Origin: Melastoma dodecandrum
Taxonomy: Eukaryota; Streptophyta; Magnoliopsida; Myrtales; Melastomataceae
Reading direction: 5' to 3'
Assembly: GCA_029817715.1 (NCBI GenBank)
Contig: JARUPY010000090.1
Location: forward strand, 186,001-250,000
DNA: 64,000 bases
Shown: piece by piece, positions 9,200-21,833 of the stretch
Layout of the letters: the number at the start of each line of letters is the position of its first letter
Numbering within the stretch: position 1 is the stretch's first letter
The notes under the pieces: model-generated
Told to the model about the DNA's origin: nothing
Databases searched by the model: none
Seen by the model: only the letters and a program-made list of their open reading frames with translations
Position numbers and translations under genes: made by a program

Positions 9200-10096
9200 T
9201 CACGCCGTGCCGTTGCCGCCGGTGGCGCCGTAGACCTCGCCGGTGACGTAGCTCGCCTCCTGGCTCGCCAGGAACACGTAGACCGGCGCGAGCTCGACAG
9301 GCTGCCCCGGCCGACCCAGCGGCACGCTCGAGCCGAACTTTTCAACCGCTTCCTGCGGCTGACCGCCGGAGGGCTGGAGCGCGGTCCAGAACGGGCCCGG
9401 CGCCACCGCATTCACGCGGATGCCCTTCTCGATCACCTGCTTGGCCAGCGCTTTCGAGAAGGCGACGATGCCGGCCTTGGTCGTCGAATAATCGACGAGG
9501 ATCGCCGGCGGATTGTAGGCGACGACGGACGCGGTGTTGATGATCGACGCCCCCGGCGGCAGGTGCGGGATGGCGGCCTTGGTGATCCAGAACATCGCGT
9601 AGAGATTGGTCTTCAGGGTGCGATCGAACTGCTCGCTCGTGATGTCGGCGATGTCGGACTGGTTGGTCTGCTTGCCGGCATTGTTGACGAGGATGTCGAG
9701 GCCGCCCAAGGCGGCGATCGCCTTGTCGACGAGGCTGTCGCAAAAGGCCCGGTCGGTGATGTCGCCAGGCAGCAGCACGGCCTTGCGACCATCGGCCCGG
9801 ATGAGATCGGCGACCTGCCTGGCGTCGGTCTCTTCGCTCGGCAGGTAGCCAAGCGCGACATCGGCGCCTTCGCGAGCGAAGGCGATGGCAGCTGCGCGAC
9901 CGATCCCTGAGTCCGCTCCGGTCACGAGCGCGCGGCGGCCGCGAAGCCGGTCGGAGCCGCGATAGGTGTGCTCCCCATGATCGGGGACCGGATCCATCTC
10001 GGCGGCAAGCCCCGGCGCCTTCTGCGGCTGGCGCGGGAAGGGCGGTGTCGGGTACTGCGTGCGGGGATCCTGCAGGTCTGTTCGGCTCGCCGGCAA
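9200..10096 (-). CDS. SDR-family oxidoreductase (YghA-like)
   Basis: A 298-residue short-chain dehydrogenase/reductase. The NAD(P)-binding [10 protein letters not shown] is at about 59-68, NNAG at about 137-140, and the catalytic YSTTK at about 203-207. An N-terminal extension of about 45 residues with [14 protein letters not shown] is characteristic of the YghA/general-stress-protein-39 type. Members reduce aldehydes or ketones; the physiological substrate is often unknown. The gene is monocistronic or heads a unit with the HAD gene. The 178 bases upstream contain a small dyad (GTTCG-6-CGAAC at 10151-10166). Confidence 0.85.
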
Positions 10097-10274
10097 GTTC
10101 GTTCTCCGTCAGCTGATGCCAAGTCACCGGAAGTGCCACCTAACTTTTTGGTTCGAACGTACGAACGCCCAAGGCTGCGACATTTAAGCGCGATGTTGCC
10201 TCTGCGATGAGCCGTCGATCAGGCGCCGTTGCGTCGTCGAACTGAGGCCGCGCAAAAGACGAGACAGTTTGCCA

Positions 10275-11015
10275 CTATACCATCTTCGCCAGGCGACCGT
10301 CGCTGGCGTCGAGCACCAAAAAGCTTTCCTGCGTCTCCATGGAGAGCGTCGAGCGTGCGGCGTCGACGCCGCCGAACTGGAACGGGAGCTGGCTCGCATA
10401 GCTCAGCGCGGCAGAGACCTTGCGGTCTGACGCGGCCGCACCGAGCGTGACGACCCGCCTCTCGAAGCTGGCGAGCTCGTGCACGAAAGGACTCTGCCGC
10501 GCCGCAGGTCTCGTTGCGTAAGGCGCGTCCGTCCAGAGCCAACAGGCCGAGCCGCCCCGGTGAAGCGCAAGGAAGGTCGCGACATGATCGACGTGAGCCC
10601 CGATCGCCTGCGGTGCGAGGACGAGGTCCGGCTCGTAGCCTTTGCGCAGCTCAGCAAGATGAGCCGCGATCTCCGCCACGATCTCGTCGGCCGGCAGAAG
10701 GCCGGCGAACAAGTCCGCGGCCGAGTTGTAGCCGCGGTGCGGCGCTTCGCGGAAAGGCAGCCAGATCGGCTCGGCGCCGATTGCGGCGCAGGCCTGGCGG
10801 TCCTCTTCGCGGCGCAGCGCCATGTAGTCGATGTCGGCGGCAAGCCCCTTGTCGAGCTGGCAGGCCAGGGCGAAGCCCTGCGGATGCGGCACGCTCGCGG
10901 TGAATACCGTTGCCACGATGACGCGCCAGCCGAGCTCGCTCAGCCGGGCCAGCGTGCCGCCGGCGGAAAAGATCGCGTCGTCAAGATGCGGAGAGATCGC
11001 GAGCGCGGTCGGCAT
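10275..11015 (-). CDS. LmbE/PIG-L-family N-deacetylase (MshB-like)
   Basis: A 246-residue zinc hydrolase of the LmbE fold. The zinc ligands are placed as in MshB: SPHLDDA (His10, Asp13) and GAHVDHVA (His144), with Asp12 as the likely general base. Relatives remove acetyl from GlcNAc linked to inositol (MshB, PIG-L) or malate (BshB). It is the last gene of the eight-gene inositol operon and starts one base after the stop of the GT4 gene, so it plausibly deacetylates the GlcNAc-type glycoside made by that enzyme (inference). Confidence 0.85.
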   Translation of the reverse strand: MPTALAISPHLDDAIFSAGGTLARLSELGWRVIVATVFTASVPHPQGFALACQLDKGLAADIDYMALRREEDRQACAAIGAEPIWLPFREAPHRGYNSAADLFAGLLPADEIVAEIAAHLAELRKGYEPDLVLAPQAIGAHVDHVATFLALHRGGSACWLWTDAPYATRPAARQSPFVHELASFERRVVTLGAAASDRKVSAALSYASQLPFQFGGVDAARSTLSMETQESFLVLDASDGRLAKMV

Positions 11016-11016
11016 T

Positions 11017-12240
11017 TCAGAGCAAGTGCGGCTGTTCGCGGAAGCGGCACGGCGTGCGCTCGATGTCGCGATGGAAGCTCTTGGCCGGTACGGTGCCGAT
11101 CACGCTCTCGTAGACGCCGACGATTTGGCGACCAATGACTTTCCAGGAGTAGGTTGCACGACACTCCTCGAGCGCGCGGGTGGCGAGGCGTTTGCGCAGC
11201 GCAGAGTCTGCGATGAGCTGCGCCAGGGCCTCGGCATGCGCCGCGACGTCGCCGGCTTCGGTGAGCACGCCATTCTCGCCGTCGCGAAGGCAATCGGTCA
11301 CGCCGACGACCTCGCAGCTGGCGACCGGGAGCCCCGCGGCCATCGCCTCGAGGATCGTGTTCGAGAAGCCCTCGGCGTAGGTCGGCGAGGCGAAGATGTC
11401 GGCGGCGCCGTAGACGGCGGGCGTCGACTCGTAGCTGCTGGCTCCGGTGAAGCGCAGCATCGGTGCCGCGAAGCCGAGTTCTGCCGCCAGCGCCTCGGCG
11501 GCCGCCACATCCGGGCCGATGCCGGAGATGGTCGCCTCGAAATCGATGCCGCGCCTGCGGAGCAGAGCGAGCGCCTCGATGAAATCGAGCACGCCTTTCC
11601 GGCGGTCGATCCTGCCGTGGTAGAGAAGGCGCGGCCGTGCCGCGATCCTGCCGACGTCCTGCCGCGGCGTGAAGCGGGTGGTGTCGACGGCGCCGGGCAC
11701 GCGCGTGAAGCGCGAGGGCGGCACGCCCATGCGGTCCGACACCTCAGCGACGAAGCTTTCACCGCCGATGAGCAGCGCGCCGGCGTGATCCAGCACCCGT
11801 CGGAACGCCTTGAAGTGCGTCTCGCAGCACGAGCCGACCCAATGGCCGTCGCCGCCCTGGATCGACACGACGCTGGGAACGGCGAGATCGGCCGCCGCGA
11901 GGACCGTGGCCCAGCCGGTCGGGTAGCCGTATTGCGCGTGCAGGATGTCGAAGGGCGCGGCGGCATGTTCGCGCGTCACCGTGGCGATGATCGTCTCGAT
12001 GTCGCGCTCGAAGTCGCCGCCGTCCTGCTCGCCGCGCGCCGGGAGCCCGATGACCTTGACGCCCGGCACGTCCGGCGGCGGCCCGCCGCCATACACCGTC
12101 GAATGCGCGCCGTCGTAATACTGGCTGATCATCGTGACGTCGTGGCCGTCGGCGACGAGCTCGCGCAGCAGGTTGACGGCATAGATGCTCATGCCGCTGA
12201 CGGCCGGGAAATAGCGCCGGGATACGAAGCAGATCCTCAT
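11017..12240 (-). CDS. GT4-family glycosyltransferase (MshA/BshA-like)
   Basis: A 407-residue GT-B retaining glycosyltransferase. The N-terminal domain opens with FVSRRYFPAVSGMSIYAVNLL, analogous to the glycine-rich acceptor loop of MshA. The C-terminal donor domain has Arg210 and Lys215 in HGRIDRRKG and the EX7E motif Glu290-Glu298 (EGFSNTILE). These are donor diphosphate and sugar contacts in the family. Sitting downstream of an inositol-phosphate synthase and upstream of an LmbE deacetylase, it could join a UDP-sugar (perhaps UDP-GlcNAc) to inositol phosphate. The donor and acceptor are inference. Confidence 0.85.
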   Translation of the reverse strand: MRICFVSRRYFPAVSGMSIYAVNLLRELVADGHDVTMISQYYDGAHSTVYGGGPPPDVPGVKVIGLPARGEQDGGDFERDIETIIATVTREHAAAPFDILHAQYGYPTGWATVLAAADLAVPSVVSIQGGDGHWVGSCCETHFKAFRRVLDHAGALLIGGESFVAEVSDRMGVPPSRFTRVPGAVDTTRFTPRQDVGRIAARPRLLYHGRIDRRKGVLDFIEALALLRRRGIDFEATISGIGPDVAAAEALAAELGFAAPMLRFTGASSYESTPAVYGAADIFASPTYAEGFSNTILEAMAAGLPVASCEVVGVTDCLRDGENGVLTEAGDVAAHAEALAQLIADSALRKRLATRALEECRATYSWKVIGRQIVGVYESVIGTVPAKSFHRDIERTPCRFREQPHLL

Positions 12241-12250
12241 GCTCTACTCC

Positions 12251-13078
12251 TCACGCGACGCGACACTGGCGCAGCCATTCGAGCGAGCCGCGTATCGCCT
12301 TGTCGGCCTGCGGGCTCTCGCGCGACAGCTCGACGCAGACGAGCTTCTCGAAGCGCGTGGCCTCCAGCGCGGCGAGGATCGACGGCACGTCCATGTCGCC
12401 GGTCCCGAACGGCAGATGCAGATGGACGCCGCGCTTCATGTCCTCGATCGAGACGGTGCCCAGATGCCCTGCCCATCGATGCACGGCTTCCGCCGGATCG
12501 ATCTCGCCCGTGACGAGGCAATGGCCGGTGTCGAGCGCCAGGCGAAGCCCCTCGACGCCGAGCATCTCCCACTCGGCCGGCGTCTCGATCAGCATGCCGG
12601 GCTCGGGCTCGAAGGCGGCCGTGACGCCGGCGCGCTCGGCATAGGCGACGACCTCGGCAAGACCGTCGCGAAGCCAACCGTGTGCTTCCGCACGATCGAC
12701 GCCCGGCTTCGGCACGCCGGCCCAGAAGGAGACGGCCTCCGACTGCAGGATCGCCGCGATGTCGATGGCTCGCTTGAGGAAGGCCACGCGCCGGGCGCGC
12801 CCCTCGGGATCGGCGGTCACGAGGGTCGGCTCGTGCTTGGCACGCGGATCGAGCAGGAACCTCGCACCGGTCTCGATCACCGAGTCGAACGACAGCGCGT
12901 CGAGCCGACGGCGCAGCGCAAGCGCTGCCTCCTGCCAGGAGGGCGCGAAGGGATCGAAATGATGATGGTCGAGCGTGAGCGCGACGCCCGCGTAGCCGGC
13001 CTCCGCCATAAGGTCGAGCGCGTCGTCGAGCCGGTGGCTGCCGCAACCGTTGGTGTTGTAGGCGAAGCGCAAGCTCAC
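12251..13078 (-). CDS. Sugar phosphate isomerase/epimerase, TIM barrel (AP endonuclease 2 family)
   Basis: A 275-residue TIM barrel of the xylose-isomerase-like group (IolE/IolI/IolH relatives). Probable metal ligands are Glu157 (FEPEPG), Asp183/His186 (LDTGHC), Glu212 (SIEDMKRG) and His219 or His221 (VHLHLPFG). The protein starts at a GTG at 13078 that overlaps the TGA of the YcaO gene (GTGA), so the two are translationally coupled. Family members isomerise, epimerise or dehydrate inosose and keto sugars, which fits the adjacent Gfo/Idh dehydrogenase and inositol-phosphate synthase. The exact reaction is unknown. Confidence 0.8.
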   Translation of the reverse strand: MSLRFAYNTNGCGSHRLDDALDLMAEAGYAGVALTLDHHHFDPFAPSWQEAALALRRRLDALSFDSVIETGARFLLDPRAKHEPTLVTADPEGRARRVAFLKRAIDIAAILQSEAVSFWAGVPKPGVDRAEAHGWLRDGLAEVVAYAERAGVTAAFEPEPGMLIETPAEWEMLGVEGLRLALDTGHCLVTGEIDPAEAVHRWAGHLGTVSIEDMKRGVHLHLPFGTGDMDVPSILAALEATRFEKLVCVELSRESPQADKAIRGSLEWLRQCRVA

Positions 13079-14568
13079 GCCGCGACCTCTGCGGCCGCGA
13101 CATGATGCGCCTCGGGCTCCCGATAAAGCGGGTAGAGCGGGCCGACCACGGCCGCGAGACGCTCCATGTCCAGCAGCGGCTGTCGCCCGAAGCGACCGAG
13201 GGCCTCCGGCGACAGGCGGATCGGCTTTCGCGTCTCGCTCGGCGCCCCGAAGACGACGAGCGGGTCGTCGCGCTCGATCAGCCTGCGCGTGTTGCGCTCG
13301 CCGATGCGCCCATAGCTCATGGTCTCGACCTCGAGGCCCGGCGCGATCGTCTTCGCGACGCTGACCGGGGCACCCGGCGGGGTGAGGTCGACGCTGAGGA
13401 CGTCGATGCCGGCCGCCTCGACGCGGACCCGCGCAATGCGTCCGGCTTCGCGCGAGCCGGTCGCGGGTGTCGACGGCAGATCGTTCAAACGCTTGCTGCC
13501 GCGCACCGCGTGCACGCTGTTGGCGAGCCAGGCGCGGATGTCGGCGGGCCGTCGCAACGACCAGTCGCGCATGGCCTCGAAGGCCCGGCCCTCCTGGGCG
13601 CCGACACCCGCTCCGGCCTGGCGCAGGAAGCGATCGACGTACCCCTGCGGCGCGATACGATCGACGACGGCGGCCGGCCCCTGCGCGAACGCCTTGCGGG
13701 CGCGGGAGGCTGCGAATTCGCAGAGACATTTGGCGAGGGCGCGCTCGCGATCGGGATGGCAGGCTTCGCCGCAGCCCGTCAGCATGATCGGCAGCGGCGG
13801 ATCGCGGCCGTCGCGCTCGAAACCCACGCAATAGACGTTGGCGAGGCCGAACTCGTCGGTGGCGAACTTGGGGATGACGCGGATGCCGGCCCGCTCGAAG
13901 CGATCGAGGATCGGCGTCACCGCGGCCGGGGGCGGCGTCGGAAGGTCGAGGGCGATGCCGCGATCGAGCGCCTTGAAGCCGAGCCCGTTGCCGTCGCGCT
14001 GCAGCAGCTCGAGCAGGCCGTGCCCCATCGCCCAGTCGCGGTCGGGACCGGCGCCCATGCCGTTGGTGATGAGCGTCGTGAACGGCGTGTAGCCCGCGGA
14101 CAGATCCTTCCGCGCAAGCGCGACGACGTCGATCGGCACGAGCACCGTGGCGCCGTCACGCGCGCGGCGGCTCTCCACCCAGTCGAGCCGCGTCTCGCGA
14201 TCGACCGGCGAGCCGGCGGGCAGACCGAGCGTGAACGGGTCGGCGACCGCGTCGGCGCCGTGCACGGCGACGAGCTCGGTCCAGCTCGCGCCGATCCTCT
14301 TCATGCCGGGAAGCGTCAAGGCAGGAAACACCATCTCCATGCACTCGCCGAGCGCTCCGAGCGCGGCCTGCGCATCGCTCGTGCCGTAGCCGACGCCGTA
14401 GGGCATGATGTCGGCCAGGCGATCGTCGTCGGGAAACAGCGCGACGATCCACACCGGCAGGCCGATCGTGTCGATCGGCGAGATCGGGAACGCGACGATC
14501 TCGCCCTTCGGCATGGCTTCGACATAGGCCCGGCCCGCGTCGCCCAAGTCGTCAGGCAATCCGGTCAT
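13075..14568 (-). CDS. YcaO-domain protein
   Basis: A 497-residue protein with the three YcaO ATP/Mg signatures: GTSDAQAALGALGECMEM (about 62-79), TNGMGAGPDRDWAMGHGLLE (about 168-187) and GCGEACHPDRERALAKCLCE (about 265-284). Most acidic ligands are kept (Glu75, Glu187, Glu284); the usual ER after the first motif is EM and the usual ERD is QRD. Known YcaO enzymes phosphorylate amide oxygens to make azolines, thioamides or amidines. No precursor peptide, TfuA or cyclodehydratase partner was seen nearby, so a small-molecule substrate is likelier (inference). It overlaps its neighbours on both sides by four bases. Confidence 0.8.
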   Translation of the reverse strand: MTGLPDDLGDAGRAYVEAMPKGEIVAFPISPIDTIGLPVWIVALFPDDDRLADIMPYGVGYGTSDAQAALGALGECMEMVFPALTLPGMKRIGASWTELVAVHGADAVADPFTLGLPAGSPVDRETRLDWVESRRARDGATVLVPIDVVALARKDLSAGYTPFTTLITNGMGAGPDRDWAMGHGLLELLQRDGNGLGFKALDRGIALDLPTPPPAAVTPILDRFERAGIRVIPKFATDEFGLANVYCVGFERDGRDPPLPIMLTGCGEACHPDRERALAKCLCEFAASRARKAFAQGPAAVVDRIAPQGYVDRFLRQAGAGVGAQEGRAFEAMRDWSLRRPADIRAWLANSVHAVRGSKRLNDLPSTPATGSREAGRIARVRVEAAGIDVLSVDLTPPGAPVSVAKTIAPGLEVETMSYGRIGERNTRRLIERDDPLVVFGAPSETRKPIRLSPEALGRFGRQPLLDMERLAAVVGPLYPLYREPEAHHVAAAEVAA

Positions 14569-15587
14569 GATGCTTGCCTCTCAAAGGAGTTCGTTGTGGC
14601 CGGCTCCGCGACCGGACAGGTCGACAGAAGCAGACCCAGCGCCGCCACGTCGCGCGCGATGTCGAAGTCATGCGGCTCGCCGCGCACGGCGGCCGCGAAG
14701 GCGCGGGCCTGCGCCGTAAACGGCGACAAGCCCGCGTCGAACTGCAGCGTGCGGCCGGCACCCGTCGTCGCTTCGATCAGCTCGACACGGCCGCCGGCGT
14801 CCTGCCCCATCGTGTCCGTCGCCACGATCTGGCCGCCGGTGCCGCAGATCTCGAGACGGCGGCGCGGCAGGGTTTCGGGCATGTTGTAGGCGACGTGCAG
14901 GCTGACGAGCACGCCACCGGCCGTTCGGCCGATGAGCATGCCGCCGTCGTCGACGTCGTAGAGTTGGACGCGGCGCTGCAGCAGGCCGGCGAGCTCGACG
15001 ATCGGCTCGCCCAGCAGCATGCCCGCGAGATCGAGCCCATGCGGCGCGAGATCGATCACAGCGCCACCGCCGGCGCGCGCGCGATCGATCCGCCAGTTGT
15101 CTTGCGGGCGCGCCGTGGCGTTCCAGCCGCGATCGAGCCAGCAGGCGTAGACGATACGGACTGCCGTCGGCAGGCCGATCGCGCCCCTCGCGACGGCATC
15201 GCGGATGGCGACATGCGCGGGATGGTGGCGCTGGTCGAACGCCACGGCGAGCAAGGTGCCGGACCGTCGTGCCGCCGCCTCCATTGCGACCGCGTCCTCC
15301 AGCGAGGCGGCGACGGGTTTCTCGCAGAGGACGGGCACGCCCGCGGCAAGGCAGGCCTCGACCACCGGACGGTGGAGATGGTTCGGCGTCGCGACGTAGA
15401 CTGCATCGAGTTCCTCGCGAAGCAATGCGCCGACATCGCGATGCGATCGCGCGCCAAGCGCCGCAGCGGCCTCGAGCGCGACGGGGTCAAGGTCGCAGAC
15501 CGCGACCACACGGCCGCCGGCCGCGACGATGCCCGGCGCCATGTAGTCGCGCGCGACCCAGCCGAAGCCGACGATGCCCCAGCGCAT
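14565..15587 (-). CDS. Gfo/Idh/MocA-family oxidoreductase
   Basis: A 340-residue NAD(P)-dependent dehydrogenase. The Rossmann motif IVGFGWVA is at 5-12, the signature CEKPVA at 88-93 (catalytic Lys90), and the substrate-domain DLAPHGLDLAG includes the usual catalytic His. Relatives oxidise a hydroxyl of inositol (IolG) or nucleotide sugars. In this operon an inositol or inositol-glycoside substrate is a reasonable guess. ATG 15587 shares a base with the stop of the methyltransferase gene; GTG at 15590 is an alternative that would overlap as GTGA. Confidence 0.85.
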   Translation of the reverse strand: MRWGIVGFGWVARDYMAPGIVAAGGRVVAVCDLDPVALEAAAALGARSHRDVGALLREELDAVYVATPNHLHRPVVEACLAAGVPVLCEKPVAASLEDAVAMEAAARRSGTLLAVAFDQRHHPAHVAIRDAVARGAIGLPTAVRIVYACWLDRGWNATARPQDNWRIDRARAGGGAVIDLAPHGLDLAGMLLGEPIVELAGLLQRRVQLYDVDDGGMLIGRTAGGVLVSLHVAYNMPETLPRRRLEICGTGGQIVATDTMGQDAGGRVELIEATTGAGRTLQFDAGLSPFTAQARAFAAAVRGEPHDFDIARDVAALGLLLSTCPVAEPATTNSFERQAS

Positions 15588-16729
15588 CACCACCGCTCCG
15601 GCAGATCGACGAGCTCGCGCGATCGTGCACGCGCCTCGATGACGGTGGCATAGTTGGGAACGTGCGTGCCAAACACCGGAGGATATGTCACGCGCGCGGC
15701 ATACTCGTCGCGATAGCGGTCGGATGGCCAACGAATGCGATCGTCGCGGCCGTAAAGCGGGTTCTTGCGAAGCGGCGCGCCGCTCGGCGGCAGCGCGAGG
15801 CCGGCGACGATGGGACGCGGCGTCGGCGCGCCGCCGAGCGCGATCGAAAACGCTTCGACTGACGAGAGAGGCTCCGGCGTGCTCGGCACAGGCGCGCGGG
15901 CCTCGGCAAGCGCGCGCGTCAGCTCGTCGTCGTCGTAGAAGACAGCGCCCTCGAACATCTCCGCGAGCGTCGCCGCCGTCATGGCGGCGCCGGCCGAGAA
16001 GTTTGCGTGGTCGGCATTGTGGATGTGGGCGAGCGCGAGCAGGCCGCCCGGCGCCGTCGCCTCGCGCAGTCGCGCCGCCACGTCGGTTTTCGGCTCGAGG
16101 AAGTAGAAGGCATCGTGGCAGAGCACCACGCCATGCGTACGCCCGGCGATCGGCCAGGGCGAGCCGGCGTCGAAGCAGACCAGCTCGACCTCGGGACCGA
16201 CGATCCAGTAGCGCGCAAGCCAAAGCTTGGCGAAGACCACGTCGCCGCCGCAGCACCGCACGCCGCGCCGCGACAGCTCGCGGAGATAGGCGCCGGTGCC
16301 GCAGGCGAGCTCGAAGGCGCTCGCCGGCGCGCTCCAATGCGCCTCGAGCAATGCGAGGCCCGCAAGGTAGGTCGGATCGCTCCAGCGATGCGCGAGGTAA
16401 TGCCCGACGCGCCCGAAGCCGAGGCTTTCCATGGCGTCGCGGAAGCTCATCGCATCGCGCTTCGAGACCAGATCGAAGATGCGCGCGGGATCGGCCGGCG
16501 CCCCGGTCCACCAATCATCCTGGTCGGCGAGGAGAGCGACAAGGGCCTCGATCTCGCGGCCATCGTCCAACAGCTTCAGCACGTCCGCGACGAGCGCCTC
16601 CCGCCCGGTGCGTAGATAAGCGATGCCGTCGATGACCGGCCACCGTTCGCCGCTGCCGTCGGAGAGCGAGTAGGCGGTATCTTTCGCGAGGGATCGTCCC
16701 GAGATCGGCGAGAGAAGCGGATCGCTCAT
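15587..16729 (-). CDS. SAM-dependent methyltransferase
   Basis: A 380-residue class I methyltransferase. The first 45 residues resemble a Trm112/UPF0434-type segment (LLSPISGRSL and PVIDGIAYLR) without zinc cysteines. Motif I FELACGTGAYLREL is at 139-152, followed by an acidic strand end (GGDVVF) and a post-motif HDAFYFLEP. The C-terminal 130 residues form an extra domain of unknown role. The ATG overlaps the stop of the HD-type gene by four bases. The acceptor atom and substrate are unknown; an O- or N-methylation of the operon's product is inferred from context. Confidence 0.8.
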   Translation of the reverse strand: MSDPLLSPISGRSLAKDTAYSLSDGSGERWPVIDGIAYLRTGREALVADVLKLLDDGREIEALVALLADQDDWWTGAPADPARIFDLVSKRDAMSFRDAMESLGFGRVGHYLAHRWSDPTYLAGLALLEAHWSAPASAFELACGTGAYLRELSRRGVRCCGGDVVFAKLWLARYWIVGPEVELVCFDAGSPWPIAGRTHGVVLCHDAFYFLEPKTDVAARLREATAPGGLLALAHIHNADHANFSAGAAMTAATLAEMFEGAVFYDDDELTRALAEARAPVPSTPEPLSSVEAFSIALGGAPTPRPIVAGLALPPSGAPLRKNPLYGRDDRIRWPSDRYRDEYAARVTYPPVFGTHVPNYATVIEARARSRELVDLPERW

Positions 16730-17640
16730 GCGAGGCCGATCTCGGCGAGCACGCCGTCGTGGAATGGCTTCACCGGCCCGTCGTGCACGAGCGCCCAGTC
16801 GACGAGGAGGTCGTGCATCGTGACGCTCGCCGGGCGAAGATGCTGCGCGAGCTGCAGGACGCGGTCGATCACGTCCGCCGCATGAAACGCACGGCCCTCC
16901 GCGGTCGACGCGTCGGCGAGGATCTTGCGGGCCTCAACGACGTCGCGCCGGAGGCCATCGGGAAGCTCTTCCAGCGCACGCGATGTCGCGGCCGCACAGA
17001 CGCGATCGAGGTGATCGCCGAGCAGGACCTCACCGGTGAAGCCGCTGTCCGGCATGAAGGCGTTGTGGAGGTGATGCGCCAGCCCGGCGAGGAACACGAC
17101 CTCGGGGTCTGCGGCGTAGTGCGACGCGAGAAGGACCCCATAGACCGCCACCATCCAGCAATGCTCGGCGTGGTTCTCCGCCGGCTCCAGCACGAGGCGC
17201 GGCTTGCCCGGACAGGTCGCGCCGGCACGCGGCTGTGCCGCCAGCGCGACCGCGAAGCGCGGCGGCGTCGCATCGGCGTGTTCCCTATGAAAGGCTCCAC
17301 GGAGCGACTCCACGAGAGCGCCGTCGACGTCCGCGCTCACGTCGACGAGAGCGCGGTCGAGCACGCTCAGGCACTCGTCGACGGTCAGCCCCAGCTCACG
17401 CAGCTTCGCGTTATCGAGGTCGCCGAGGCGCGCAGCGGCCAGCGCACGCGCGGTCGTCGCCCTCATCACGCTTGTCGTGGTATCGCCGGCCATCAGCGCC
17501 GACCATGCGCTGAGGAACTCGCGCTCGGCGATCGATCCGTGTTGTCCCGCCGAGCGGATCCGCTTGAGATCGCCGAGCTCGCCCAAGAGGTCACGCAAAC
17601 CAGCAAGCGACCCCATGGGCGATACAAGACCCGCGGTCAC
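16726..17640 (-). CDS. HD-domain-like protein with altered metal motif
   Basis: A 304-residue protein starting at a GTG that overlaps the TGA of ino1 (GTGA). The second half resembles an HD-domain fold: His157 and His160 in ENHAEHCWM, then LAGLAHHLHNAF (His189-His190-x-His192) where a classic HD protein has His-Asp, and Asp257/Asp260 in AADVIDR. The HH in place of HD is unusual. HD folds include phosphohydrolases and diiron oxygenases such as inositol oxygenase and PhnZ. In this operon a role as inositol-phosphate phosphatase or oxygenase is possible but is inference. The N-terminal 145 residues are helical and unrecognised. Confidence 0.6.
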   Translation of the reverse strand: MTAGLVSPMGSLAGLRDLLGELGDLKRIRSAGQHGSIAEREFLSAWSALMAGDTTTSVMRATTARALAAARLGDLDNAKLRELGLTVDECLSVLDRALVDVSADVDGALVESLRGAFHREHADATPPRFAVALAAQPRAGATCPGKPRLVLEPAENHAEHCWMVAVYGVLLASHYAADPEVVFLAGLAHHLHNAFMPDSGFTGEVLLGDHLDRVCAAATSRALEELPDGLRRDVVEARKILADASTAEGRAFHAADVIDRVLQLAQHLRPASVTMHDLLVDWALVHDGPVKPFHDGVLAEIGLA

Positions 17641-18875
17641 GCCGCGTCGTCCTCCGCGCCGTCGACGCCGAGCCAACCCATCAGCGCGTCCTGCTGGGCA
17701 TGGAACGCGTGTTCCGGCAGATGGCCGTTGCCGGTCATCGGCGCCTTGAAGAACACGCCGAGCTGCTCCTGGACGCCGCCTTCGCCGCGCCGCGCCGCAA
17801 GACCGAGGCAGCGCACGATCTCGATCGCCAGCGGCGCCGCGAGGATCGAGTCCTTGCAGAGGAAGTTGACCTTGAGCTGCATGCGCTGGCCCATGAAGCC
17901 AGAGATGTCGATGTTGTCCCAGGCCTCCTTGTCGTCGCCGCGGGGACGATAGTAGCGGATGTCGATGATGTGGTCCTCGACCTCGTAGCCGAGCATCTGG
18001 TCGAGCACGCTCTTCTTGGTGCCGAGCTTCGACTTCAGCGAGTTCGGATCGTCAAGCGCAAGGCCGTCGCGATTGCCGAGGATGTTGGTCGAGAACCACC
18101 CGTCGACGTGCAACGCGCGCTGGCGCAAAGCCGGCGCGATCACCGTCTTCAAGAACGTCTGTCCGGTCTTGCCGTCCTTGCCGGCGACGGCGACGTTGCG
18201 CTCGCGCGCCATCTCGATCAGCGGCTTGGCGTCGGCGGCGACGGAGGGCGTGAAATTGGCGTAGGACGCGCCGTTGCTGATCGCGGCGTAGGCGTACAGC
18301 ATCGCGGGGCCGACGTCCGGATCGGAACTGTCGAGCGCCTTCTCGAAGCTGGCGAGGTCGCGCAACGCGGCGGCGTCGGGGTCGGGATAGCGCTCGGTCG
18401 AGGCGAGGTTCAGCATCACGACGCGGTCGACGCCGCTCTCGGACTTGAAGCGCGCCAGATCGTCGCCGATCCGCTCGACGGCGGCGCGATGGCTCTTCAC
18501 GACGATCTTGTTGTCGCCGTCGACGTTGCGGCAGAACGCGGCGGATCCCACGGCGGCCATCGGACGGATGCCGCGCAGCGACGATCCGGCGTCGTCGACC
18601 TGTGCGCGGTCGAGCACGCCGTGCTTCTCGGCAGCGACGCCGAGGTCGTCGCCGTTGACGTCCCACCCCGTGAAGACGATGTCGCGGTAGTCGGCGAGGC
18701 CGGGCACGGACAGGCCGGCCAGCGGCAGCCCGGTGCGCTCGTTGCGACCCGACTTGATCATCTCGATGCCGGCGATGGCCGTCGTTGCGACCGCGCCACC
18801 CAATCCGACGACGGCCACACCAATCCTCTCACGACCGTCGTCACTGGTCGACTGTGACTGTCCGGCAGCTCGCAT
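17637..18875 (-). CDS. ino1: myo-Inositol-1-phosphate synthase
   Basis: A 412-residue NAD-dependent enzyme that converts glucose 6-phosphate to inositol 1-phosphate. It has the Rossmann VGLGGAVATTAIAG (23-36), NLASTE, the GKDGKTGQTFLKT segment, and the SKLGTKKSVLD / NxxGNxDG region (NILGNRDG) of the catalytic domain. ATG 18875 is chosen because AAAGG lies nine bases upstream; a TTG at 18890 is the alternative. It heads the operon. The 92 bases before it contain a TTGACG -35-like hexamer on the minus strand (18958-18953) without an obvious -10. Inositol-phosphate synthase is sparsely distributed in Proteobacteria, so its presence marks a dedicated pathway. Confidence 0.92.
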   Translation of the reverse strand: MRAAGQSQSTSDDGRERIGVAVVGLGGAVATTAIAGIEMIKSGRNERTGLPLAGLSVPGLADYRDIVFTGWDVNGDDLGVAAEKHGVLDRAQVDDAGSSLRGIRPMAAVGSAAFCRNVDGDNKIVVKSHRAAVERIGDDLARFKSESGVDRVVMLNLASTERYPDPDAAALRDLASFEKALDSSDPDVGPAMLYAYAAISNGASYANFTPSVAADAKPLIEMARERNVAVAGKDGKTGQTFLKTVIAPALRQRALHVDGWFSTNILGNRDGLALDDPNSLKSKLGTKKSVLDQMLGYEVEDHIIDIRYYRPRGDDKEAWDNIDISGFMGQRMQLKVNFLCKDSILAAPLAIEIVRCLGLAARRGEGGVQEQLGVFFKAPMTGNGHLPEHAFHAQQDALMGWLGVDGAEDDAA

Positions 18876-18967: not shown

Positions 18968-20791
18968 TCACCCGACCGTCATGCCGACCGCGCTGCGATT
19001 GCTGCGGAGGTTCAGGCATTGTGTCGGCATGTCGAGCCCGCGCGGTGGCGGAAGCGGGGCCGGGACGGCATCAGGCTCGATCTTCCTGCCGGCTCGTAGC
19101 TGCGCCTCGATGTGCTGCCGTCGAAGACGAAGCCGATGCGGCGTCGTCTCCTCCGGCGTCGCGAAGAGCGGCCAGCGCCGGCTGCGGCTCGTCTCGAGCG
19201 CCAGCGGAATGGCGGCCGCCGCCCCGACAGCAAGCCAGGCTGCGGCAAGCGGCGTCGCGCGCGCCAGCGCAAGCGCGGCAAGGGAGAGGACAAGGGTAGC
19301 CGGCGTCAGCGCGCGAAAGGACTCGTGGCGCGAAAGATTGCGATCCTCGCGTGATTGCGCCGCCCAGCGCGAGGCGCCTGCGAACATCATGGCGACGAGA
19401 TCGATGAGGTGCGAGACGGCGACGACAGGGTAGATCAGGGCGGCGAAGAGCTGGCTCGCCGTGGCGCTGGCGATCAATCTGGCGCTGCCGCCGTAGCCCG
19501 CGGCGTCGCCGCCGGCGAGTGCCGCGATCAGGCCGAGCCCTCGCGGCAGCGTGAGAAGCACCGCTACAAGGACGACGAGACCGTCGAGCCCGACGCGCCG
19601 ATCGAGAAGCGCATAGGCGAGGAGCCAGATGGCGAGCAGCGGCGCATAGAGGAAATGCGCGAGCCCGCGGATCAGATGATAGAGCGAGGCGACCTTGAGC
19701 CCGCTCGCCGCGAGCACCTCGCCGTGCTGCAGGTTGCCGCGCAGCCAGCGCCGGTCGCGCGCGAGATGATCGGCGACATTGGTGGGCGTTTCCTCCCAGG
19801 AGCCGTCCGGGCGGCCGTCCGGCCCCGCCGGCATCATCCACACCTCGTATCCACGGCGCAGCAGGAGCGCGGCCTCGACCGTGTCGTGCGACAGGATCTC
19901 GCCGCCGAAGGGCGGCCGGCCCGACAGCTCCGGGAGCCCGCAGCTCGCCGCGAAGGCGGCGCAGCGGATGATGGCGTTGTGGCCCCAGAAATTGCCGCGG
20001 GAGCCCTGCCAGAAGGCGGCGCCGGCCTGGAAGACCGGGCCGATCAGGCGGGCGTCGAATTGCTGGATCCGCGCGAAGGTCGTCAGTCGCCCCACGGGGT
20101 AGCACATCGCCTGGATGAGCCCGGCGCGCGGGTTCGCCTCCATCGCGCCGACGAGGCGGCCGATGCAGGCCGCGGTCATCAGGCTGTCGGCATCGAGGAC
20201 GACCATGAAGTCGTAGGCGGCGCCCCAGCGCGTCACGAACTCGGCGACGTTGCCGGCCTTGCGACCGCAGTTGTCATGGCGGCGACGACACAGCAGGCGC
20301 GGCCCGCCCGTCCGGCTGGCGCGGTCGAGCATCGCCTCCTCGATCGCGATGGCGCCGGGCGTGCGCGAGTCGCTCAGCACGAACACGTCGCTCGTCCCGA
20401 TGCCCGCGTCGGCGACATCGTCGGCGATGGCGCGCGCCGCCGCGAAGACCTGCGCCGCGTCTTCCTCGTGGATCGCGAACAGGATCGCCACGCGGGCGGC
20501 GCCGGAGGGCGGCTGCATTTTGAGGCCGGCGACATCTATGACCGGTCGCCGGGACAGGACCACGAGTAGGCCAAGCCCGGTGCACCAGCTCGACATCGCA
20601 AGGACGAGGACGTTGAGGGCGACAAGGAGCGCATAGGCGACCCGTGCCGGCGGCGACACACCGTCCGGCAAGCGGGCGAGCGCGAGACAGAAGGCGGCGG
20701 TGGCGATCACCGCGAGAGGACCGAAATTTGCGAGATGCCGCGCAAAGATTGCGGCGTGTCGTGGCTGCGGCCGCGGCGCGCGCACATCCAT
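18968..20791 (-). CDS. opgH: Glucan biosynthesis glucosyltransferase (OpgH/MdoH family)
   Basis: A 607-residue inner-membrane GT2 enzyme that polymerises the beta-glucan backbone of osmoregulated periplasmic glucans. Two N-terminal membrane helices precede the cytoplasmic domain with the acidic motifs SDSR (140-143), LDADS (199-203) and SHD (301-303), followed by RDRRWLRGN (345-353), the QxxRW equivalent. Several helices follow at the C terminus. The start at 20791 has a GGAGGTGA ribosome site. There is no opgG partner here. It sits 92 bases upstream of ino1 on the same strand and could be read through into the operon. Confidence 0.88.
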   Translation of the reverse strand: MDVRAPRPQPRHAAIFARHLANFGPLAVIATAAFCLALARLPDGVSPPARVAYALLVALNVLVLAMSSWCTGLGLLVVLSRRPVIDVAGLKMQPPSGAARVAILFAIHEEDAAQVFAAARAIADDVADAGIGTSDVFVLSDSRTPGAIAIEEAMLDRASRTGGPRLLCRRRHDNCGRKAGNVAEFVTRWGAAYDFMVVLDADSLMTAACIGRLVGAMEANPRAGLIQAMCYPVGRLTTFARIQQFDARLIGPVFQAGAAFWQGSRGNFWGHNAIIRCAAFAASCGLPELSGRPPFGGEILSHDTVEAALLLRRGYEVWMMPAGPDGRPDGSWEETPTNVADHLARDRRWLRGNLQHGEVLAASGLKVASLYHLIRGLAHFLYAPLLAIWLLAYALLDRRVGLDGLVVLVAVLLTLPRGLGLIAALAGGDAAGYGGSARLIASATASQLFAALIYPVVAVSHLIDLVAMMFAGASRWAAQSREDRNLSRHESFRALTPATLVLSLAALALARATPLAAAWLAVGAAAAIPLALETSRSRRWPLFATPEETTPHRLRLRRQHIEAQLRAGRKIEPDAVPAPLPPPRGLDMPTQCLNLRSNRSAVGMTVG

Positions 20792-20951: not shown

Positions 20952-21833
20952 ATGCCCGGCCTCACGCCCTTCCTCGACGCGCTCCGCCAGCCGGCCTTCT
21001 GCTGCACGAATTGCGGGTTCTGGCAGCGCCATTTCGAGCGGCCCGCGTCCTGCCCGATGTGTCTCGATGCGCGCCACGTGGTGCCGCGGGACGGGTGGCG
21101 GTTCCTGTCGCTCGCCGAGGCGCAGGCGGCATGGCCCACGCATTTCGAGGAGCTGGAGCCAGGCGCGTGGCGCTTCTGGAACGAGCCCGTCGAGGGGATC
21201 GGTCCGTCCGGCTACCTGCTGGCCGGCGAGACCGGCAACATCTTCTTCGAAGGCTGCAGCGTCTTCGACGAGGCCGCGCTCGCGCAGATCGACAGGCTCG
21301 GCGGGATCGCGGTGCTGTCGGCCTCGCATCCGCATTCCTACGGGGCGCTCTGGCAGCTGCAGGACAGGTTCGAACCTGAGTTGGCGCTGCCCGCGGCCGA
21401 CTTCGCCTGGTCGCCGGCACTGCGGGTGACGTGGCCGTGGGACGATGCGCTGGAGCCCCTGCCCGGCTTCGCGCTGCATCGGACGGCCGGGCACTTCGAC
21501 GGGCACGCCGTGCTGCACGACGTTGGCCGCCGCCTGCTGCTCTGCGGCGACGCGCTGAAGTTCGAGCTCGATGCCGACGACCGCCGGCGTGCGACGACGA
21601 TCTCCGCCCACAAGGCCTTCGTGCGCGCCGTGCCGCTGACGCCGATGGAGCTGCGCCGCTACCGCGACGTCTTCGCGCCGCTCGACTTCGTCGCGACCTG
21701 GACGCCGTTCGAGCAGGTCCGAAACAGCGGACGCAGCGAGGCGCTGGCGCTGATCGACGCGCAGCTCGCGACGCGGCCGCATGCCGCGCAGGTCCCTCTC
21801 GACGCATTGCGGTCCGATCGCGGCCGACAGTGA
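20952..21833 (+). CDS. Zinc-ribbon plus metallo-beta-lactamase-like protein
   Basis: A 293-residue protein. Residues about 15-40 form a zinc-ribbon/rubredoxin-like knuckle (CCTNCGFW and CPMC). The rest resembles the metallo-beta-lactamase fold: SASHPHSYG stands where HxHxDH is expected, TAGHFDGH supplies a further His, and LLCGDALKF the bridging Asp. Because the DH pair of HxHxDH is missing, the metal site is probably incomplete or mononuclear. The substrate is unknown. The gene is divergent from opgH with 160 bases between. The ATG at 20952 lacks a strong ribosome site, but the reading frame upstream is not convincing. Confidence 0.65.
   Translation: MPGLTPFLDALRQPAFCCTNCGFWQRHFERPASCPMCLDARHVVPRDGWRFLSLAEAQAAWPTHFEELEPGAWRFWNEPVEGIGPSGYLLAGETGNIFFEGCSVFDEAALAQIDRLGGIAVLSASHPHSYGALWQLQDRFEPELALPAADFAWSPALRVTWPWDDALEPLPGFALHRTAGHFDGHAVLHDVGRRLLLCGDALKFELDADDRRRATTISAHKAFVRAVPLTPMELRRYRDVFAPLDFVATWTPFEQVRNSGRSEALALIDAQLATRPHAAQVPLDALRSDRGRQ

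Follow-up and report, generated by a model that had tools for sequence, protein, structure and literature searches.

An ino1-YcaO operon and a co-inherited MBL-fold gene as a candidate pathway for a modified aminosugar-inositol

Eight minus-strand ORFs at positions 10275-18875 of the window (the whole 64,000-nucleotide stretch of DNA analysed) form an operon that is one conserved unit, and an MBL-fold protein encoded outside it is a ninth component of the same pathway (Table 1). Together, the nine enzymes would make a small, non-peptide, modified aminosugar-inositol (a glucosaminyl-cyclitol), a reading to which we give an even chance and in which reactions and product are predicted from enzyme families.

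Operon organization and genes outside it

Inspection of the ORFs agreed with the initial annotation of an eight-gene operon, down to the junctions. The ino1 and HD genes share a four-base GTGA overlap if the GTG start of the HD gene is used, or are separated by a 20-base gap if its ATG start is used. ATGA overlaps join the HD gene to the methyltransferase gene and the Gfo/Idh gene to the YcaO gene, TGATG joins the methyltransferase and Gfo/Idh genes, GTGA joins the YcaO and TIM-barrel genes, and the GT4 gene is preceded by a 10-base gap and followed by a 1-base gap. The gene order, which the initial annotation had proposed to search for across genomes, recurred across further genera and in plasmid records, including a Bacteroidota plasmid that retains it minus the methyltransferase gene. 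This recurrence implies that the arrangement is not due to chance. When nine loci were compared with all 41, a Crp/Fnr-like regulator was conserved beside the operon and no other neighbor gene was; in the nine loci, this covered transporters, uptake systems, lipid genes, proteases, and partner proteins.

Table 1. Features of the operon and of two nearby genes in the window.
Feature	Length (aa)	Coordinates	Strand	Basis or remark
ino1, inositol-3-phosphate synthase	412	17637..18875	-	Pfam
HD-fold protein, probable phosphohydrolase		16726..17640	-	Start GTG 17640 or ATG 17616
SAM methyltransferase	380	15587..16729	-	Pfam Methyltransf_25/11
Gfo/Idh/MocA dehydrogenase	340	14565..15587	-	Pfam
YcaO without partner gene	497	13075..14568	-	Pfam YcaO
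Xylose-isomerase-like TIM barrel	275	12251..13078	-	Pfam AP_endonuc_2
GT4 glycosyltransferase	407	11017..12240	-	Pfam
LmbE/PIG-L deacetylase	246	10275..11015	-	Pfam PIG-L
MBL-fold protein, N-terminal CxxC...CxxC ribbon	293	20952..21833	+	Pfam Lactamase_B
OpgH/MdoH-like GT2 glucosyltransferase		18968..20791	-	NCBIfam MdoH; ATG 20791 is the suggested start

The eight-gene set was nevertheless incomplete, because it ended short of the MBL gene, which in most other loci sits inside the operon between the Gfo/Idh and YcaO genes. In one sampled family (n = 248 genomes), the MBL gene was present in 26 of the 27 genomes with YcaO and in 0 of the 221 others. Of these 26 copies, 22 lie away from the operon (17 on a different contig and 5 more than 400 kb off on the same contig), and a gene that in this family is co-inherited yet mostly remote offers a clean genetic handle on the pathway. 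Moreover, the gene was present in 8/8 whole genomes tested and in 0/2 single plasmid records, and no ORF besides MBL was common to all six stretches around non-operon copies. The MBL gene occurred without YcaO in 2 of 111 Methylobacterium-type genomes (G919 and G944), which we count against the preferred reading. The protein, whose N-terminal ribbon is of the zinc type, matched Pfam Lactamase_B (8.7e-06), and its predicted model, of moderate confidence (pLDDT 74.1), was most similar to 2p97, an uncharacterised hydrolase (TMt 0.77).

The initial annotation had also overlooked the gene immediately upstream of ino1, which is OpgH/MdoH-like (NCBIfam MdoH, 5e-140). This gene is a lineage-specific associate of the operon: it adjoins the operon in the window, L084, L065, and a Roseomonas plasmid, relatives near the operon were found only in L065, L067, and L084, and no match was present in the stretches examined for 41 genome-contig loci or for Methylobacterium loci. 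Its position would fit a role of the operon in surface or periplasmic glycan or lipid modification, with an inositol lipid or osmoregulated glucans as substrates of GT4 and LmbE. The closest solved relative of Ino1, 7nwr (2.8e-81), points the same way, since we take it to be a Bacteroides enzyme of inositol-lipid synthesis. We consider this role unlikely, given the narrow occurrence of the OpgH-like gene and the lack, across the nine loci compared, of a conserved transporter or lipid gene next to the operon.

Distribution and promoter type

The operon is near-universal in the sampled genomes that appear to belong to leaf-dwelling Methylobacterium, where YcaO was present in 108 of 111 Methylobacterium-type genomes, and it also occurs in scattered other bacteria as far as Bacteroidota. 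The ino1 gene was present in 36/36 genome-contig loci with the ino1 side intact. Likewise, among 151 Sphingomonas genomes, YcaO occurred in 16, each of which also had operon-type Ino1, and the remaining 135 contained no operon-type Ino1 (0/135) and a weak, partial Ino1-like match in 19. YcaO, GT4, and LmbE genes occurring usually without ino1, which would have spoken against a shared pathway, were thus not seen, as Ino1 accompanied YcaO in 16/16 Sphingomonas genomes. A link to aerobic phototrophy was rejected in Sphingomonas, because the reaction-centre family PF00124 was present in 24/151 genomes and in 0 of the 16 with YcaO. Anti-phage defence was also rejected: nine of ten proteins had no PADLOC match at E<=1e-5, and the methyltransferase matched PADLOC mad2 at 29.9 bits over the methyltransferase part.

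Of 46 Methylobacterium/Beijerinckiaceae-type operons, 30 had an EcfG-like motif, GGAA[CT]-N16-18-GTT, in their upstream sequence, compared to a mean of 1.7 in shuffles drawn as first-order Markov samples; the pattern was framed after some upstream sequences had been inspected, and related genomes among the 46 operons are not independent. A looser [GA]TT pattern (43/46) was picked post hoc, and the GTT count is the usable figure. The published M. extorquens EcfG consensus, GAAC-N16,17-C/GGTT, is stricter and matched 3 of the 46 promoters. The EcfG-like motif was found in 1 of 32 genome-contig loci and was absent upstream of the window operon and its near relative L084. We count the low match to the stricter consensus, the single occurrence among genome-contig loci, and the absence from these last two loci against the preferred reading. 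In Methylobacterium and its kin, the general stress response probably turns on the operon; the product would accordingly most likely be a stress protectant. The stress-type promoter also makes a role on leaf surfaces testable.

The pathway looks uncharacterised. No description of the operon was found in the open literature on YcaO, as judged by titles and abstract openings of the matches listed, and no cluster recognisable as the operon appeared among the antiSMASH results of a study on the comparative genomics of Methylobacterium (PMC8561711). The great majority of Methylobacterium-type genomes, 108 of the 111, together with scattered relatives, devote nine enzymes to a product without a name in the literature searched.

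Enzyme families and predicted reactions

A modified inositol-sugar product, as the initial annotation had proposed, remains the most economical reading of the gene set. Ino1 (Pfam, 2.5e-58; Inos-1-P_synth, 1.5e-33), with a mean column identity of 78% in 12 sequences, would form inositol phosphate, to which GT4 would add an N-acetylhexosamine. GT4 (Pfam, 1.5e-30) has invariant R210, K215, E290, and E298 in 16 sequences, and its closest solved relatives are of the MshA, sucrose-phosphate synthase-like, and BshA types. The MshA-like acceptor loop ascribed to it was not borne out, because the MshA matches do not begin until residue 146-147, which belongs to the donor domain; a direct MshA-type GT4 was rejected on the same grounds. 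This confinement to the donor domain, with donor and acceptor both only predicted, weighs against the preferred reading.

The HD protein (Pfam HD_3, 1.5e-06) has an HD fold as in the HDDC2/YfbR phosphohydrolases, which makes it the candidate for removal of the phosphate. The residues considered for a canonical His-Asp metal pair, H181-H182 at the likely motif together with H149, H152, H245, and D248, were invariant in 40 sequences. Sequences of solved structures gave two matches, neither credible (E 0.035 and 0.18). PhnZ ranked 22nd of 50 Foldseek matches listed and MIOX was absent from the matches listed, and the HD protein may yet be a MIOX- or PhnZ-like oxygenase. To our knowledge, no enzyme has been assigned to the phosphatase step of mycothiol synthesis, and the HD protein would provide the kind of step missing there.

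LmbE (Pfam PIG-L, 2.4e-18) would then remove the acetyl group. Its closest solved relatives are Dbv21 (1.6e-32, profile positions 2-219 of 228) and teicoplanin Orf2, and weaker ones at E<=0.001 include PH0499, diacetylchitobiose deacetylases, and TT1542. This proximity to N-acyl-glucosaminyl deacetylases was counted in favor of the glucosaminyl-inositol reading. The zinc ligands H10, D13, and H144, which had been called MshB-like, were indeed invariant in 14 sequences including that of the window, but no solved relative at E<=0.001 is named MshB.

Gfo/Idh (Pfam, 1.2e-23), in which E89-K90-P91, D179, and H183 were invariant in 13 sequences, and the TIM barrel (AP_endonuc_2, 1.1e-35; weak solved relatives including UlaE, IolE, and IolI) would oxidise the cyclitol or sugar and reshape it. 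DgpA, which works with TIM-barrel partner proteins, is among the Gfo/Idh relatives, as would be expected if the pair broke down an inositol glycoside or C-glycoside in the manner of DgpA/DgpBC. Such catabolism is highly improbable, since both Ino1 and GT4 serve biosynthesis, the nine loci compared share no conserved uptake system, and the closest solved Gfo/Idh relative is 1,5-anhydrofructose reductase (2.4e-53). In the proposed synthesis, the MBL-fold protein may carry out a hydrolytic or redox step, and the methyltransferase (Pfam, 1.9e-07; solved relatives weak) would methylate. The methyltransferase had no match in the Hymenobacter copy of the operon and thus seems dispensable, a further point counted against the preferred reading.

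The YcaO domain (PF02624, 1.3e-45) scored 156.6 bits against a cut-off of 25.7 over positions 2-325 of 325, and 2148 of 7999 candidates scored were homologues at E<=1e-20. With ATP, YcaO would activate a carbonyl or amide oxygen for attack by nitrogen or another nucleophile, giving an amidine, azoline, thioamide, or enamine. YcaO enzymes are known to us so far for peptide and protein modification, and we know of none with a sugar or cyclitol as substrate; if this one has such a substrate, the chemistry of the family extends past peptides and proteins. YcaO and methyltransferases are frequent RiPP enzymes, and the window YcaO scored 80.7 bits with the SagD model. Both points would suit a RiPP cluster in which YcaO modifies a ribosomal peptide decorated by the sugar genes, an arrangement that we hold to be very unlikely. 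The SagD score lies below the curated cut-off of 219.25, as do those of the YcaO proteins of L008, L066, and L067 (100.7-111.7). Within the 800-bp flanks of 33 operons, no ORF of 15-89 aa recurred in more than 8 loci, and the small ORFs shared most widely were found in eight loci that belong to a single close Sphingomonas group; a precursor gene may still lie farther away. Together with the mostly overlapping operon genes, this result gives no sign of a precursor peptide. Moreover, no protease, partner protein, or transporter was conserved in the nine loci compared, and Ino1 is always present.

Comparison with known systems

Mycothiol synthesis opens with Ino1, a GT4, and a PIG-L deacetylase. 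The operon likewise joins these three, with an expected GlcN-inositol intermediate, but adds the HD protein, methyltransferase, Gfo/Idh, YcaO, TIM barrel, and MBL-fold protein. The likeness to mycothiol synthesis drawn by the initial annotation held in that these enzymes share one pathway with ino1, but failed at the level of subfamilies. Ino1 scored 33.9 bits with the mycothiol-type model TIGR03450 (cut-off 638), GT4 scored 86.3 bits with the MshA model TIGR03449 over residues 146-381 only (cut-off 462.5), and LmbE scored 25 bits with the NCBIfam model for BshB1 (cut-off 182.5) and 18.6 bits with that for Mca (277.15). Neither an MshC ligase nor an MshD acetyltransferase was conserved in the neighborhoods adjoining the operon (nine loci compared with all 41). 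A mycothiol-like low-molecular-weight thiol, with YcaO or a distant gene attaching a thiol-bearing group to GlcN-inositol, would account for the common front end and for MshA ranking with the best solved GT4 relatives. We judge it quite unlikely, because the three enzymes fall far below the thiol-pathway cut-offs, the regulator is the only extra conserved neighbor in nine loci compared with all 41, and patchy occurrence in Sphingomonas (16/151) is odd for a central thiol.

The operon YcaO shares the full YcaO domain with SagD-type cyclodehydratases and the enzymes of McrA-glycine thioamidation, but at about 70-120 bits it lies under both curated cut-offs, and it is found instead in a sugar/cyclitol operon with no precursor or partner found. 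The YcaO proteins of L066 and L067 also score above the cut-off of TIGR00702, a general model of the YcaO kinase domain. Similarly, LmbE matches the glycopeptide deacetylases Dbv21 and Orf2, whereas no glycopeptide genes were seen with the operon and its acceptor is predicted to be a cyclitol.

In kasugamycin-type and other cyclitol aminoglycosides, the imine group is made by other enzymes. The proposed product would nonetheless resemble these aminoglycosides in combining inositol, an amino sugar, and an imine-type group, as kasugamycin does according to PMC8869731. Methylobamine, described as a UVA compound of Methylobacterium, comes from the same genus and habitat as operon carriers. Mycosporine-like sunscreens combine a cyclitol, methylation, and ATP-driven amine condensation, and the proposed operon chemistry would follow the same logic. 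The product could be imagined as a new glycosylated cyclitol protectant, made with YcaO acting on a sugar or cyclitol: a mycosporine-like UVA absorber derived from myo-inositol in sun-exposed leaf, lichen, and air bacteria. Gfo/Idh would form an inosose, the TIM barrel would dehydrate it, and O-methylation and a YcaO-driven amine condensation would complete the chromophore. We regard this form of the product as distinctly unlikely; if correct, it might explain the orphan UVA-absorbing compounds of phyllosphere Methylobacterium.

Conservation of the operon

The eight open reading frames and seven junctions described for the window by the initial annotation were all reproduced, and its enzyme-family assignments were confirmed. 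Genome contigs were scanned with a 23-sequence YcaO alignment, which yielded 41 loci, and the window proteins were then used as tblastn queries (see table). The recurrent order in other loci is ino1-HD-MT-Gfo/Idh-(MBL)-YcaO-TIM-GT4-LmbE, where MT is a methyltransferase and MBL a metallo-beta-lactamase-fold protein. Each of the five Ino1-less loci (L004, L006, L007, L009, and L024) starts at a contig end that falls inside the operon, and L044 stops within the operon. With script-picked starts, 4-base and 1-base overlaps are the commonest junctions, and the Gfo/Idh-MBL overlap is 10 bases in 33 of 33 cases. Plasmid records from Roseomonas, two Methylobacterium species, and Hymenobacter (Bacteroidota) carry the unit, and the Hymenobacter copy gave no methyltransferase match. 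Locus L040 retains only part of Gfo/Idh and a 42-bit MBL remnant; its long shared reading frame looks as if intervening sequence had been deleted, either really or by assembly error.

Components of the pathway and associated features
Feature	Sequence	Position (strand)	Genome-contig loci with component (of 41)
Operon, ino1 to LmbE	Window	10275-18875 (-)	
Ino1	Window		36
HD	Window		36
MT	Window		38
Gfo/Idh	Window		40
YcaO (query of scan)	Window		41
TIM	Window		40
GT4	Window		40
LmbE	Window		40
MBL	Window	20952-21833 (+)	39
OpgH/MdoH-like glucosyltransferase, adjoining ino1	Window	18968-20791 (-)	
Partial Gfo/Idh, MBL tail, and YcaO in one long frame	L040 (Parapontixanthobacter aurantiacus)	9206-11494	
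Pair of genes of the spore photoproduct lyase family, just past operon, after mdoH	L067 (Roseomonas plasmid)	15810-17931	

The window comes from contig C126 in a 373-Mb assembly of 607 contigs, and because its gene content is bacterial we regard it as bacterial sequence within a eukaryote-sized assembly. The operon is present on three contigs of this assembly, C126, C142, and C591 (loci L060-L063), with YcaO proteins 54% (C142) and 52% (C591) identical to that of the window; several pathway-carrying bacteria may therefore live with the sequenced organism. The closest fetched relative, L084 from genome G1033, shows 84-96% protein identity across the entire neighbourhood, which is kept as in the window (porin-like gene, MBL, OpgH, ino1 to LmbE, SDR, and HAD). 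Relatives of the OpgH/MdoH-like gene are likewise found close to the operon in L065 and L067, but in none of the stretches examined for the 41 genome-contig loci.

MBL as a ninth component and distribution of the pathway

In most loci, Gfo/Idh and YcaO are separated by an MBL-fold gene whose product has a CxxC...CxxC ribbon; in the window this gene is apart from the operon and divergent from the OpgH-like gene. MBL also accompanies the pathway in genomes where the two are not side by side. In a family sample of 248 genomes around G898 (the genome of L004, a Beijerinckiaceae MAG, with G1033 among its members), 27 contained YcaO and 26 contained MBL (E<=1e-50), every one among those 27, and MBL was found at this threshold in none of the 221 genomes without YcaO. 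In G1173, the sole exception, the YcaO match contains a stop, and the contig numbers indicate an assembly of at least 600 contigs. MBL lies on a different contig from YcaO in 17 of the 26, which does not itself prove distance, more than 400 kb away on the same contig in five (G036, G910, G957, G999, and G1014), and nearby in four (G005, G1033, G1079, and G1138). The 27 genomes are not 27 independent events, because 15 are in the Methylobacterium-type genus list; outside that list, MBL occurs in 11 of 12 YcaO-bearing genomes. Among records examined individually, it was found in 8/8 whole genomes and 0/2 plasmids. The initial observation is correct and is extended: there are nine co-inherited enzymes, not eight.

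We took the genus of G036 as Methylobacterium because its locus L056 and a Methylobacterium bullatum record share 94.6% identity across 18.9 kb. The pathway is near-core in this genus sample (n = 111), with YcaO in 108 genomes and MBL (E<=1e-80) in 109; G919 and G944 have MBL without YcaO, so the pairing is imperfect. In Sphingomonas, the genus of G001, YcaO occurs in 16 of 151 genomes. A finding that the YcaO, GT4, and LmbE genes usually occur without ino1 had been named beforehand as a possible refutation of the pathway; strong Ino1 matches (E<1e-230) were found in the same 16 genomes, leaving the proposal unrefuted, and this co-occurrence is partly expected because of linkage. In another 19 Sphingomonas genomes, all Ino1-like matches were weak and partial (E 1e-12 to 1e-15), and we take them as a different paralogue. 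No link to phototrophy was found in Sphingomonas. The unit is rare in wider samples: the phylum-wide sample of 398 genomes gave six strong matches (the centre genome and five others, each of these five from the Methylobacterium-type genus) and a single weak one at 26% identity, and the class-wide sample contained the unit in 3 of 385 genomes, centre genome included.

Upstream motifs and possible stress role

Upstream sequence was searched within 350 bases of 46 operons (39 fetched stretches plus seven loci). GGAA[CT]-N16-18-GTT occurs upstream of 30, compared to a mean of 1.7 and a maximum of 5 in 200 shuffles, always 99-130 bases from a reference point near the ino1 start. The motif of EcfG, the general-stress-response sigma factor, is given as GGAAC-N17-20-GTT for Sphingomonas melonis (PMC6599016) and GAAC-N16,17-C/GGTT for M. 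extorquens (PMC4814048); the strict M. extorquens form fits only 3 of the 46. The CCAGTT end frequent among these upstream motifs also appears in one EcfG-dependent S. melonis entry (transcript 2534; PMC6599016). The window and L084 have GGAA[CT]-N16-18-GTT on neither strand. In one Methylobacterium-type group (L086-L095, L101, L055, and L068), GGAAC-N17-ATT replaces the GTT form at about the same position, possibly reflecting a shift in sigma-factor specificity. An Fnr/FixK/Crp-like regulator gene lies upstream of ino1 in 23 of 41 genome-contig loci (including L005, L013, and L014), and perfect GTGA-N6-TCAC sites occur in 6 of 32 genome-contig upstream regions (shuffle mean, 0.1). A role in stress is therefore plausible, although regulation is not the same in all lineages; in Methylobacterium-type genomes the pathway has a predicted stress-type promoter.

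Methylobacterium produces UVA-absorbing compounds, one being methylobamine (PMC12573535, PMC7821382, PMC9664959, PMC8822675); a link to this pathway is speculation. The spore photoproduct lyase family genes beside the L067 operon are suggestive of a UV context.

Proposed chemistry and comparison with mycothiol synthesis

In the open papers that we searched, we found no description of the operon. Ino1, GT4, HD, and LmbE would produce glucosaminyl-inositol, and Gfo/Idh and TIM would remodel a ring. YcaO would activate an oxygen for attack at the expense of ATP, and MT and MBL would perform finishing steps. A peptide is an unlikely substrate, since at most 8 of 33 loci share any one small open reading frame beside the operon. 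The initially proposed analogy to mycothiol synthesis does not carry beyond the front half of the pathway, for which it is useful.
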